This document shows positions 16,138 through 36,010 of a stretch of DNA of 64,000 bases, in pieces. Origin of the DNA: Isoetes taiwanensis (taxonomy: Eukaryota > Streptophyta > Lycopodiopsida > Isoetales > Isoetaceae); NCBI GenBank assembly GCA_021234155.1, contig JAJEKV010000062.1, positions 1,594,602 to 1,658,601 on the forward strand. Direction: 5' to 3'. The translations under genes and the position numbers were made by a program. Under the pieces are notes generated by a model. The model searched no databases and was not told the origin of the DNA. It worked only from the letters and a program-made list of their open reading frames with translations. The number at the start of each line of letters is the position of its first letter. Position 1 is the stretch's first letter.

Positions 16138-16730
16138 ACTACTATCAAATGATTGGCTTGTCGGCTGCAACCGACCTGAGCATCTTTCATATAGCTCGCA
16201 TAATCGCGATTTTGCAAATCCACAGAACCCCCAGCCATAATCTTGCCCATAGATGTCAAATGCCTTCGCGAAAAATCCACAAAGCAACAATATAGATCTT
16301 GACGGCGGTTCCTGCTGTCTTCAACCAGAGTTCGCAACGTGAGGATGTGGTCAATGGTTGAGTGCCGGGTCTCAATCCTCGCCTCGAAAGTGAGGGCCCG
16401 CGACTTCTCGCCGCCTCCGCCAGCCTGGCTCGCCGCTCGAGAATCCCAAAGAAGCGCTTTTACAAACAATTTAACTGACCATGATTGTTCGGTAATTGGT
16501 CGGGCAGTGTGGGTCACCGCCTTTATAGATGGGAACAACTCGCTATTGGTCCACCGCAATGGGAAGCCTTCCCAGAATGCCTTGTTGAACAAGGTGGTCA
16601 AGATCGTATTATGGACTACCCCTCGCCCACTTAAGCAATTCTCGCTCGCGATACCATCGTGTCCGGGCTTTCCCATTGGCAAGACGCCGCAAGCCTTGTT
16701 CCACGCCCGATTCGGTGGATTTTCAAGCAC
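16134..16730 (-). pseudogene. LINE-B reverse transcriptase fragment, copy E
   Basis: A 198-codon frame contains ILTTLFNKAFWEGFPLRWT, an RPITEQSW stretch and RHSTIDHILTLRTLVED, then CFVDFSRR where the catalytic KAFDT block is damaged. It ends with RLQPTSQ-like residues at the junction with the L1 scrap. Confidence 0.75.
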
Positions 16731-17140
16731 CGGCCTTCTTTTGTGGGTAATGTCGCATGTGCACCCTCGAGGGTCGTGATAATCGCTGCAAGTATTGCCT
16801 CCACCGCCGGGAGTGATATTCCCTATGGGTCGATCGCTTTCTAAGAACCTCTTCGCTAAGGTCCCGGATGACGCTCTGTGAGGTAAATCATTTCCTTTGA
16901 TGCTCTACAATGTACCTGGTTTCTTTAGCTTTAAGGAAGACGCGGTATCGCTCGGACCGCATGTGGGCGAGGTGGTTCTGCGGACTTGGCGGAACCAGCG
17001 TTTGCCTTCCTTGCACTCTGATCAAACCATGATTACGGGAAGGTTGTGTTCCTCGAGGTCCGTCGCATGCTTTTATCCCAAAGCACCTCCTCTCCGCCGT
17101 AATCCTAAAACACATCGTCGGCCGGCCCGCCTGTGCTGCT

Positions 17141-18102
17141 CTAGTGTAGGATATTGCAAAAATTTCGCCAGTTATCTATAAGCATCCGGGCATAAGCCCC
17201 TCGCATGTTCATAATCCAATCGCAATGAGGCATGTGAGGAGTTGTTGCACCGGGGTTCGCGACAACCGCCAAGCCAACTTCAAGTAAAGTGGTAAGTGGC
17301 CCGAAGTCGATCTCTTCATCCCTATTAGCCGTTCCCACTGGAAGTGCTTGACGACATGCATATCCTGCTCAGGCACCAGCACATAGTCCACCACACTAGA
17401 TCCTCCCCCCCATTTTCCCGCCTACAATTGTTCTTGTGGGTGGACGCCACCGCGGCTACCCATTGCGCATTACTGTGTCAACGATACCGCGAGAAAAAGC
17501 AATCGCTTACCATAGCTGCGGACTCCGATTGTCATCTGATATCCGCGGGCAAGCTCCTTCTAGCGGACGCAGCTTGCAATATATCATCACCAAGGGATCA
17601 AATCTCATGGGTTGTTCTACCCCAAAGCAGTGCGCATTGAAGTCTCCAAGGAGTGTGACATCGCCTAACCTGCTTATGCCGCTATATGTCATCATATAGA
17701 TCGATATATAGCGCCCAAATTTCTATCCACATCCGAAAGTGGGTGTGATAGAAGTTGCTTTCTACATGTGAAAAGTAGCAGTCGCCACAAAGAGGGGTCT
17801 GCCATCGCAGCTTTTGCACACGCACCACCACAACCAGCTTGTGCTTGTATGTCTTGAACAAGGAGATTGACTGCCAAGGTCGTTCGGTAGTATGTGCAAA
17901 ACCCCCATGCCCCCGCTTCCCCGGTAATCATTGAAGATTGAGTAGCGCTGGTATCCCTCGACAAGTCTGCATCATGTGTCCCCGCGATGCTCCCATGTTT
18001 CCATGAGGAAGATGAGATACATGTTCCGGGGCAATCGAAGTTGAGACTATCTCCCTTCGCCATGGGAAGCCCGACAATTCTAGGAGACCATGCGAGGCAC
18101 AA
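17141..18102 (-). pseudogene. LINE-B endonuclease, copy E
   Basis: Pieces in three frames match the endonuclease of the copy at 12.2-13.1 kb: ATQSSMITGEAGAWG, LLGDFNAH (catalytic DFN motif, about 17640), MVDYVLVPEQDMHVVKHFQ, and the region read as HCDWIMNMRGAYARM at about 17210, which joins the linker. This copy runs unbroken across the point where the 9.4/12.3-kb copy is inverted. Confidence 0.7.
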
Positions 18103-18352
18103 TTCCTATTTGTTGGCTGTGGGCATGTGGGGATTCAAGTGGTGGCAGCAGAAGGGGGATGGCGTATGGAAGTACCGAGATGTGTGAGCAAATGTAAGGT
18201 GAGGCAACTTGAGTGTGGTATGTGGGCTGTAGCAGCGGCCACCGCTGGGGTCGCTGGAGGGTTAGCGTGATTCGCAAAGATTTGGCGGCCCGAAAATTTG
18301 CATCTTGCCCCGGATCGCCCCCGCAGCTCCTCCCCCTCGCCCGCTAATGCTT

Positions 18353-18619
18353 TTAACTTTGGACAACTCGTGCCTGCGGTCTTCTTGTTGCACGAAACTT
18401 TGCCCGTGCTTCTCTTTTCAATGTGCACCTGTCAATTTTGCCAGTGTCATCTGGCCTGTGATTGGGGATGGCATTTATGTACTCTCCCAATAGAAGTTTT
18501 GCTGCCATGTCTGCGCTAGGTAGAGGGGACTGCGTATCAGCACCATCCACATGCATATCTATGGGGTTGGATGAAGGGATGCAGGGCTCATCCGGTTCTT
18601 CTATCATTGGAGTTGCCAT
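18353..18619 (-). pseudogene. Possible LINE-B ORF1 N-terminus
   Basis: An 88-codon frame starts MATPMIEEPDEPCIP and ends rich in Arg/Lys. Its position at the 5' side of the endonuclease and its acidic-then-basic composition fit a LINE ORF1 start. There is no recognisable domain. Confidence 0.35.
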
Positions 18620-18638
18620 GAATAGGGTGTCACCCTAT

Positions 18639-33711: not shown

Positions 33712-34577
33712 CTATGATGTATGACCGTCAGACGTGATCGCGCCTTTGGCGTGGTACGTGATTTCTAGTTTGATCATTAGAGGTACATGATCGGATTCCG
33801 ATCTACCGTCTCCTATCGTGAACTCTTTGATGCCCTTCATCATGCTTGTGCTTCCAATGACCAGATCCACGACACTAGATCCCTCCCTCCCCGCCCAAAA
33901 GATGTGCATTTTTGCGTGCCTTAACGAAAGTTGACGTGCCATTGTAAATTACCATTCCCAAGCCCCCACACATATTCAAAGACATGACTTCACGGGGGTG
34001 TTACGATCCATACATGTCATCGTAGTCCCCGCTCAAGCCCGCCTGATTGCAGCTCGTCCTCCTCTAATTGATCCATCCAGATTGGTTCCCCATAGGTGCT
34101 GCTGACATACGCCTGTTTGTTGGCAACTCGGCCATTGAAATCGCCCATCAGAATGACTTCGCCTGTCTCCATGAGTCCCAAGACTTCCTGTTCTAGATGA
34201 TGAAATGGGTCATCTCGATCTAAGTCATCCTTGTCATATGTGGGAGATTCCCTTGGAGGGAAGTAGCAGCCGGCCACATAAATATTTTTGTTGTTGCCCG
34301 GTATCTCTATAATAATGAACTGTTTTGTGATGCATGTCTTTTTAATTTTGATTCTTCCAATTAGGTGCTTCCTGATATAGCAAGCTATGCCGCCAAAACC
34401 TTTATGTCTCCAGCCTTTGTTGTGCCACAGTGATTGAGCTAGTTCAAAGCCAGGGATGCTTGGCATGCCAAGTTCCTCATGCTCATGAGTTTCTGCTAGA
34501 AATAGAATATCCCACAGATTGAGAATGTCTGCCATGGAAGCCAATTTCTTGCTGTCCATGCCATTGACATTCCACAT
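33712..34577 (-). pseudogene. LINE AP-endonuclease, copy C
   Basis: 34577-34017 is open for 186 codons: MWNVNGMDSKK (the catalytic Asn region), DILFLAETHEHEELGMPSIPGF (catalytic Glu), GGIACYIRK, VAGCYFPPRES and GEVILMGDFNGRV (DFN). After a break, 33942-33712 gives SSVVDLVIGSTSM and RSESDHVPLMIKL (SDH pair). Nearly all catalytic motifs survive. This is the nick-making enzyme that would choose the (TC)n target in the model proposed in the findings. Confidence 0.8.
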
Positions 34578-34763
34578 ACAAAGCGTGATGGCCTCGAGTT
34601 CCTATTCTTGGGGTGGTTCTACAACCACCCTGCCATTTCTCCAACGGGCCTTTTGACCTGCCTGCCTTGCATCCCTCATTTTTTGGATCTCCTCCCTATG
34701 TTGAGCATACTGGGTGGGCGTGAGATCTTCGTTTATCCATAGGTTTTTCCCTTTTAGCTCTGC

Positions 34764-35288
34764 TCATTTCTGCAAGACCGCCATTTTGTGCCCTCTGTCA
34801 ATGAAGCGTACTACTATGTTTCTATCTTTCCCAGTTGGTTTGCCTACTCGGAAGGCTTCCACGATCCCCCCTTGCTGTATTCCCATGTGCTGTGCCAGGA
34901 TTTTAGCCACTTCGTCTTTGACATTTCGCCCCTCCTTTTCTGCGGACCGCTCTCCGGGATGTTCAATGCCCCGTGGTTGTCCGTCTTGATCTTCCTTAAT
35001 TTCATCAAACCTCTGGTTCAGCCTTTGCACTACATCTCTCAGAGACCCATTTTCATCATTGTCACCATCATAATACTCTGTTGCCCTTTGAGATTTCATG
35101 TTTTCTATTTCTACCTTCAATGCAGCATTATCTGTTTTCAAGTCTGAAATAGTGCCAACCATATTTTTAACAGTCTGTTCCATGGAGCCCATCATCCGTG
35201 TCATCATTTCCCTTGTTGCAGATAATTCATGAACCACCTGGAAGAGCAGGGGAATTAATTCCGGAGACCCTCGTCTTTGGGATACCAC
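34764..35288 (-). CDS. LINE ORF1 protein (coiled coil, RRM-like), copy C
   Basis: A 174-codon open frame. Residues 15-70 have heptad-like spacing (VVHELSATREMMTRMMGSME, then TDNAALKVEIENM), consistent with a trimer-forming coiled coil. The C-terminal part has KILAQHMG, FRVGK and RNIVVRFIDRGHKMAVLQK, the last part resembling the RNA-binding domain of L1-type ORF1 proteins. The frame stops soon after that domain starts, so the C-terminal domain is lost or out of frame. In LINEs this protein coats the element RNA. Confidence 0.6.
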   Translation of the reverse strand: MVSQRRGSPELIPLLFQVVHELSATREMMTRMMGSMEQTVKNMVGTISDLKTDNAALKVEIENMKSQRATEYYDGDNDENGSLRDVVQRLNQRFDEIKEDQDGQPRGIEHPGERSAEKEGRNVKDEVAKILAQHMGIQQGGIVEAFRVGKPTGKDRNIVVRFIDRGHKMAVLQK

Positions 35289-35939
35289 CAGAAAACCGCC
35301 TGTTACATCTTTGCATTAAGCGAGCCATGTTCCCCCCTGCGATGCCCCCTGTAAACATGGCTTTGTTTGAATTAAAGAGATGAGGATTAGGATAACCTGT
35401 TTGGGCAGTAAGGTATCTTTGGCTCGAGCGGGCTAGATCAAAAGTGCATTTAAAAAGGACCCATTACCTAGAACTCCCGGATAACCCAAATCCGTTTTGT
35501 TGCTTTGCGATCATACTTACATGCGGGCGGCTCGGGCCGGCTAAACAATTAGATGTGGGCTTAAAAAGGAAACTCCCGGATAAGCTGTTGGACCCAAATC
35601 TGGGTTTTTGTTGTTGCTTGCAGACGCAGCTTCTGCCATGGCAAGGCCTGTTGGAGTTTTGCCGAGATAGAGATGCAACATCGATGGTTCGGCCCATTGC
35701 AATCTCGGTGAATCTCATCCGGACCCTCTCCCCGTTTTTTTTGTTTTACCGTGAGCTCCGCCGCCGGATTTAGCCGCCGATGTCGATCCTTGTCTTTCGC
35801 CATTTCTTTTCTATTCCTTCCTTGTCCACATCCACATACCGCAAACTGGACCCATCGATGGTGAACCCCCGCACCGAGCCCACCGGAATATTGGTCGAGC
35901 CCCCGCCTTCTTGTCAGCCTCTAGCATGCCATCGAAAGT

Positions 35940-36010
35940 GAGAGAGAGAGAGAGAGAGAGAGAGAGAGAGAGAGAGAGAGAGAGAGATAGAGAGAGATAG
36001 AGAGAGAGAG
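35940..36010. repeat. (GA)n tract, 71 bp, with GATA interruptions
   Basis: GA repeat at the 5' end of LINE copy C. On its other side lies GA-rich sequence to about 36100 but no LINE 3' end, so this is the outer edge of the array. Confidence 0.95.

Follow-up and report, generated by a model that had tools for sequence, protein, structure and literature searches.

Preferential insertion of a LINE lineage into (TC)n microsatellites in the lycophyte Isoetes taiwanensis

Results

An array of LINEs between (GA)n tracts

We analysed a stretch of 64,000 nucleotides from Isoetes taiwanensis (assembly GCA_021234155.1, contig JAJEKV010000062.1, positions 1,594,602 to 1,658,601; referred to as the window), in which long interspersed nuclear elements (LINEs), that is, non-long terminal repeat (non-LTR) retrotransposons, lie head to tail between long (GA)n tracts. 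The elements D (20057-22134), B1 (22323-26668), B2 (26784-31096) and C (31203-35939) are all on the minus strand and all adjoin such tracts. The tract at 19889-20056 adjoins the 3′ end of D, those at 22135-22322, 26669-26783 and 31097-31202 separate D from B1, B1 from B2 and B2 from C, and the tract at 35940-36011 adjoins the 5′ end of C. All five match the repeat at 94-100%, which bears out the tract positions given in a first-pass annotation of this DNA. Of the junctions claimed there, we find LINE 3′ ends at the right edges of tracts one to four and LINE 5′ ends at the left edges of tracts two to five; the recognized piece of a further element, E, said there to have its 5′ end at the first tract, ends at 18390. 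The genome searched comprises 1,658,258,908 bases in 1110 contigs, and perfect GA/TC tracts of at least 30 bp cover at most about 0.5% of it (an upper bound from genome-wide counts). Thus, the junctions between tracts and LINEs exceed chance.

B1 is near full length and contains an open reading frame 1 (ORF1) region, an apurinic/apyrimidinic (APE) endonuclease, a reverse transcriptase (RT) and a CCHC motif, albeit in broken frames. B2 has a DNA identity of 90-95% to B1 and therefore belongs to the same family. D is 5′-truncated and retains the RT and the C-terminal part only, yet it is bounded by (GA)n on either side, so that a truncated copy also begins at the tract, as had been noted before; an ATTC-type 3′ tail precedes its TC tract. 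C has a putative coiled-coil ORF1, an APE endonuclease and an RT. As the amino acid identity to the RT of B is 49% for D and 40% for C, both represent separate families. The first-pass annotation had assigned all five elements to one type; in fact only B1 and B2 form one family, and E (16118-18390, minus strand) belongs elsewhere. E is 79-85% identical at the DNA level to the elements F (9387-11930, plus strand) and G (12200-13439, minus strand), which belong to one related family. F ends in (TTATTC)n away from any tract, and its family served as the control in the genome-wide comparison. The match of E to F stops at 16118, and therefore the 3′ end of E is not seen.

Nine long copies out of 18 of family B were examined; in none of them does a frame free of stops exceed 485 residues. 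The matching assembly was made from Nanopore and Illumina reads together with optical maps and was polished, according to the available part of the genome paper (PMC8566536); some of the frame breaks may thus be sequencing errors. The B 3′ ends among the best 40 of 849 candidates are 96-100% identical, which points to fairly recent activity of this family.

(TC)n at the 3′ ends of genomic copies

For 90 junctions alike we asked for a CT run of at least 16 nt on the expected strand within 120 nt of the LINE 3′ end. Such a run follows 50 of the 70 3′ ends of families B, C and D (B 21/30, D 16/20, C 13/20) and none of the 20 ends of family F (Fisher test, p = 2.7e-9). Runs on the wrong strand (GA) occur at 0/70 of the B, C and D copies read and likewise at 0/20 of the F copies. 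Background windows from the same B loci contain CT runs in 6/270 and GA runs in 0/270 cases. Most copies read are thus held by the same simple repeat, and in a fixed orientation to it, in line with the uniform orientation already noted for the array. With 0/20 (TC)n junctions in the F family, E is no member of the targeted set, to which it had been assigned, and we leave it out of the (TC)n system.

To obtain the B junctions, the terminal 400 bases of B1 served as query against the genome at the DNA level; of 849 candidates the 40 best were scored and 30 loci cut out, including the window's own B1 (L012; L numbers denote single loci). For D, the 40 best of 344 candidates were scored and 20 of the 40 were read, picked for a match near the 3′ end. 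The C search gave 41 matches, with 40 of 92 candidates scored and 20 of the best reaching the 3′ end read. For F, the 40 best of 4237 candidates were scored and, leaving aside the copy in the window, the top 20 were read. One further D copy has a run of 14 nt and one further C copy a run of 12 nt. In all 30 B loci a pyrimidine-rich run follows the AATAAA. The exact 16-mer with which B ends at its 3′ side was counted 91 times in the genome (reversed control: once); in the forward direction, CTCTCTCTC follows within 10 nt in 30/42 occurrences, and scored by eye from two lists it was found in 36 of the first 53 copies. Three of the B 3′ ends (L019-L021, G000:C1054:10510651-10516403) share their flanks and form a segmental triplet outside any (TC)n tract. 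None of the three has a CT run of at least 16 nt; when they are taken as one, the count for B is 21/28.

That the pattern is an artefact of assembly we judge unlikely, as it occurs at many loci and is absent from F, and as the assembly combines Nanopore and Illumina reads with optical maps, to go by the portion of the genome paper at hand (PMC8566536).

(TC)n at the 5′ ends of family B

The 5′ flanks were read for 18 of 36 further B loci. These copies span 399 to 4296 bases and differ in their start points, that is, in their 5′ truncation. A CT run lies within 120 nt upstream in 13/18 copies, at a distance of 0 to 58 nt, compared with 8/560 upstream background windows, and GA runs on this side were found in 0/18. 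Downstream, a CT run is present in 12/18 of the same copies, and 10/18 have one on both sides. For family B the repeat hence stands on either side of the element, truncated copies included. Taking both sides together, it is not the case that most copies lie outside (GA)n/(CT)n tracts, the observation by which the first-pass annotation would have abandoned its proposal of a (TC)n-targeted LINE family in a plant; that proposal is supported by our counts. One of the 18 copies, L048, shows an apparent 17-base target duplication outside any tract (read by eye).

At 11/18 long loci the B copy has other LINE pieces nearby, and all protein matches to these share the orientation of B. By eye, another LINE end directly beyond or before the tract was recognized at L054, L055 and L057, at L075 and L077, and at L088. 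When matches to the 3′ end of B1 are ranked (best 40 of 849 candidates), its neighbour in the window, B2, comes no higher than row 32. Thirty of the listed rows, three of which are the segmental triplet, match this end better than the neighbour B2 does. B1 and B2 are therefore most likely separate insertions.

3′ tails and hairpin

The three families have 3′ tails of their own, (CTTT)n in B, (TATTC)n in D and (TTTC)n in C, and each then switches to (TC)n. In most D copies AATAATAAACAATTC is followed by TATTC repeats and then by TC; in B copies zero to eight CTTT units stand ahead of TC, and in C copies mostly TTTC units. In F, units such as TTATTC or CTATT lead into unrelated DNA. Because each family's own non-TC tail gives way to (TC)n, we regard the tract as the landing site and not as the tail. 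From the presence of the repeat on both sides, the first-pass annotation had argued that the tract must be more than a tail; this was right, and the finer reason is that tails exist and are not TC.

Upstream of the tail, a hairpin followed by an AATAAA-like stretch is common to B, C, D and F. In D both lie at 20079-20126 (minus strand), the same structure is found at the 3′ ends of the window LINEs at 22323-22362, 26784-26823 and 31210-31247, and F has it at 11877-11921 (plus strand). RNAalifold applied to six sequences kept an inner helix of five pairs, in which both partners of one pair have changed and a pair is broken in one sequence. When folded singly, B, C, D and F also form an outer helix with different letters; a sequence of the presumed Azolla type (see below) folds less well.

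Relations of the reverse transcriptases

In an RT tree (IQ-TREE) B, C and D form one branch (SH-like approximate likelihood ratio test, SH-aLRT, 84), which is joined by the nearest database proteins (support 91), and F lies outside those (94). A tree in which B, C, D and F were held together with human L1 and the plant L1 of the window was rejected (approximately unbiased, AU, test, p = 2.35e-5), where it has to be considered that both L1 sequences sit on long branches and that the tested group was named after a first tree had been seen. The RT thus appears to fall outside the L1 clade, which speaks against the Tx1 group of L1 suggested in the first-pass annotation, as judged from a tree without a Tx1 sequence. 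Against the solved structures, the B RT scored 64 bits with R2 and 42 bits with L1. The L1-like ORF1 put forward in support of Tx1 was not confirmed either: in Pfam, a composite of B had no match and C gave sub-threshold coiled-coil matches only.

The endonuclease is of the APE type, as the C frame matches Exo_endo_phos in Pfam (7.7e-8) and B1 aligns to the endonuclease of C (6e-12). By eye, the ORF ends shortly past the CCHC motif; no search was aimed at a restriction-like endonuclease domain. A protein search with the B composite yielded 141 proteins, and among the 120 listed the identity is at most 40% and nearly all are nameless. Scans of viral contigs found no relative. The scan of prokaryotic contigs gave one weak hit and two LINE-bearing contigs (L001, L002) in a bin of the cyanobacterium Trichormus from sample ERR2144891, which are presumably DNA of the host plant Azolla contaminating the bin; their LINEs join the RT group (support 95). 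Elements labelled L1-Tx1 are annotated in ferns, with 0.56% of the genome given in the table for Ceratopteris (PMC6890710).

A dispersed repeat and other neighbours of the array

To the right of the array, a dispersed repeat of about 4.2 kb (36012-40255, plus strand) is bordered on either side by (GA)n, in both cases on the same strand: the tract adjoining C is its left border, and a sixth tract (40256-40325), which was missing from the first-pass annotation and at which no LINE end was seen, is its right border. The repeat recurs in fetched loci that bear LINE tracts. Where one or both ends could be read they are inverted, TGCG..GGCCACATGC-like, and adjoin (GA)n; the left end of the copy in the window resembles them less. 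Such ends were found at 4/28 B loci, 6/18 long loci and 2/20 C junctions (two places belong to both the B and the long-locus set), and at 0/20 D and 0/20 F junctions. In each of these loci the repeat is opposite to the LINE, with GA on its plus strand (read by eye). Five of its ORFs had no match in Pfam. The 4.2-kb repeat is a neighbour of the LINEs and possibly a source of their target tracts.

Between E and the first tract, the region 18391-19888, which might be the 5′ region of E, has a 39-bp motif common to the 5′ untranslated region (UTR) of B (score 33; best of 200 shuffles, 27). The motif is contained in a 196-bp tandem repeat of 2.4 copies at 19337-19802, to the left of the first tract, which possibly represents the 5′ UTR monomers of a LINE. 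F and G (9387-13439), on opposite strands, look like two parts of one LINE: they join at one and the same position of the element, as an inversion of roughly 9387-12266 would leave them. Beside the array lie what we take to be host genes, with long coiled-coil protein frames at 46118-52000 and, at 53776-55362, an open frame of 528 residues resembling pentatricopeptide repeat (PPR) proteins.

Discussion

Our results suggest that B, C and D very probably belong to one non-LTR retrotransposon lineage that inserts preferentially, and with fixed polarity, into (TC)n-(GA)n microsatellites. Preferential polar insertion is well supported by the junctions; the preference is strong, not absolute. In the copies read, the LINE sense strand is on the TC strand. 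We propose that the APE-type endonuclease would nick the GA strand of a tract and that the RT might recognize the two-helix hairpin at the 3′ end of the RNA, a structure to which some base-pair changes lend support. The RT would then prime from the 3′ end of the GA strand, aided by pairing with the pyrimidine-rich tail. The outcome, a full-length or 5′-truncated copy with (TC)n on either side, is what we observe. Since the remaining tract would stay a target, later insertions could come to lie beside earlier ones, giving rise to head-to-tail arrays such as those found here. In this scheme we infer that the endonuclease is the cause, in what order the arrays grew and what tail pairing contributes.

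Although its hairpin and tail are similar, F does not prefer (TC)n; we infer from this that the proteins of a family, most likely its endonuclease, determine the preference. Alternatively, the site might be chosen by pairing of the RNA tail with the GA strand and not by the endonuclease. TTC-rich tails could indeed pair with GA; however, some F copies carry D-like (CTATT)n tails and show no such preference, so that we regard this mode of site selection as unlikely, though worth keeping in mind.

Another explanation would be that the LINEs recognize the 4.2-kb repeat with its (GA)n borders instead of (TC)n itself. This repeat adjoins the tract of C in the window and its ends recur at the B, C and long loci counted above; most loci, however, have no match to it, and it was not met at any of the 20 D junctions, where the flanks, as in C, are only about 150 nt long and often all tract. 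Recognition of this repeat is accordingly improbable. Still less credible is that the elements insert at any place and that the RT itself adds (TC)n as a 3′ tail, or slippage later expands a pyrimidine tail into such a tract. LINEs do often end in simple repeats, for example (CA)n or (CTATTT)n in green algal families (according to the part of PMC3747384 available), and the tails described here are pyrimidine-rich. Nevertheless, these tails consist of other units before they change to TC, the repeat also stands on the 5′ side of 13/18 B copies including truncated ones, and the F tails of similar kind lead into TC in 0/20 cases. That the array of the window arose by segmental or tandem duplication of one insertion, as the adjacent and 90-95% identical B1 and B2 and the segmental triplet elsewhere in the genome could suggest, hardly deserves consideration, for D and C differ from B in about half or more of the RT protein, many copies match the 3′ end of B1 better than B2 does, the 5′ ends and tract lengths of B1 and B2 are unequal, and 11/18 other loci have LINE neighbours in the same direction; with three divergent families the array is no single segmental amplification, which the first-pass annotation had named as the other ground for abandoning its proposal.

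Several observations weigh against preferential insertion of one (TC)n-directed lineage. A CT run of 16 nt is missing at 20 of the 70 3′ junctions, six of which have 9-15 nt and 14 less (the segmental triplet counting as three), and on the 5′ side at 5/18 copies (L048, L051, L053, L054 and L059). Some of the 3′ misses are at pyrimidine-rich sites (L024/L051, L062, L090, L097), and others are at sites that are not (L019/L048, L026/L053, L060). In addition, old copies are under-represented, since the copies that scored best supplied the junctions, and the background windows come from the same loci and not from random places of the genome. The support of 84 for the branch of B, C and D is not decisive, the RT of C stems from a broken frame, and the nearest database proteins stand between B/C/D and F. 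A single origin of (TC)n targeting is possible on the basis of the RT tree, and the part of the endonuclease is deduced from comparing the families.

Tentatively, and with considerable doubt, one may imagine that this lineage of an early-branching vascular plant switched once, by way of its endonuclease, from the scattered insertion of F to the (TC)n insertion of B, C and D, and that it shares the (GA)n niche with the unrelated 4.2-kb repeat, which would spread the landing pads.

A plant case of a (TC)n-targeted LINE was not found in our searches of open-licence papers, and the accessible part of the Isoetes taiwanensis genome paper does not mention LINE targeting (PMC8566536). If our interpretation is true, the known range of repeat-directed LINE insertion widens to include land plants and an RT lineage that does not belong to L1. 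Because targeting and non-targeting relatives share one genome, the gain of a target by a LINE endonuclease becomes testable from few proteins. The model also explains where long (GA)n-LINE arrays may come from, and it cautions against taking every simple repeat at the end of a LINE for a tail.

Among the known systems compared, the presumed Azolla LINEs of L001 and L002 belong to the same RT group, the latter with a similar inner hairpin; they differ from the Isoetes families in that neither contig has a (TC)n tract according to tandem-repeat scans. Microsatellite-specific LINEs were reportedly described by Kojima and Fujiwara in 2004, and (TC)n-specific families with an APE endonuclease exist among the animal LINEs of the Tx1 clade. 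The latter resemble the elements described here in the type of endonuclease and in the simple-repeat target. They differ in their hosts, here a land plant, and in the RT, which here appears to lie outside the L1 clade, in which Tx1 is placed in the available part of a study on green algal elements (PMC3747384). The L1, RandI and RTEX LINEs of green algae are similar in having short-repeat 3′ ends within the green lineage, whereas in the same portion of that study these repeats are listed as the elements' own 3′ repeats and no claim on target choice is made (PMC3747384). Finally, the (TG)n-specific Togen and the microsatellite-specific HERO families likewise have a microsatellite as target; these families, however, use a restriction-like endonuclease, as stated in the part of the source at hand (PMC4640811), while C encodes an endonuclease of the APE type to which B can be aligned.

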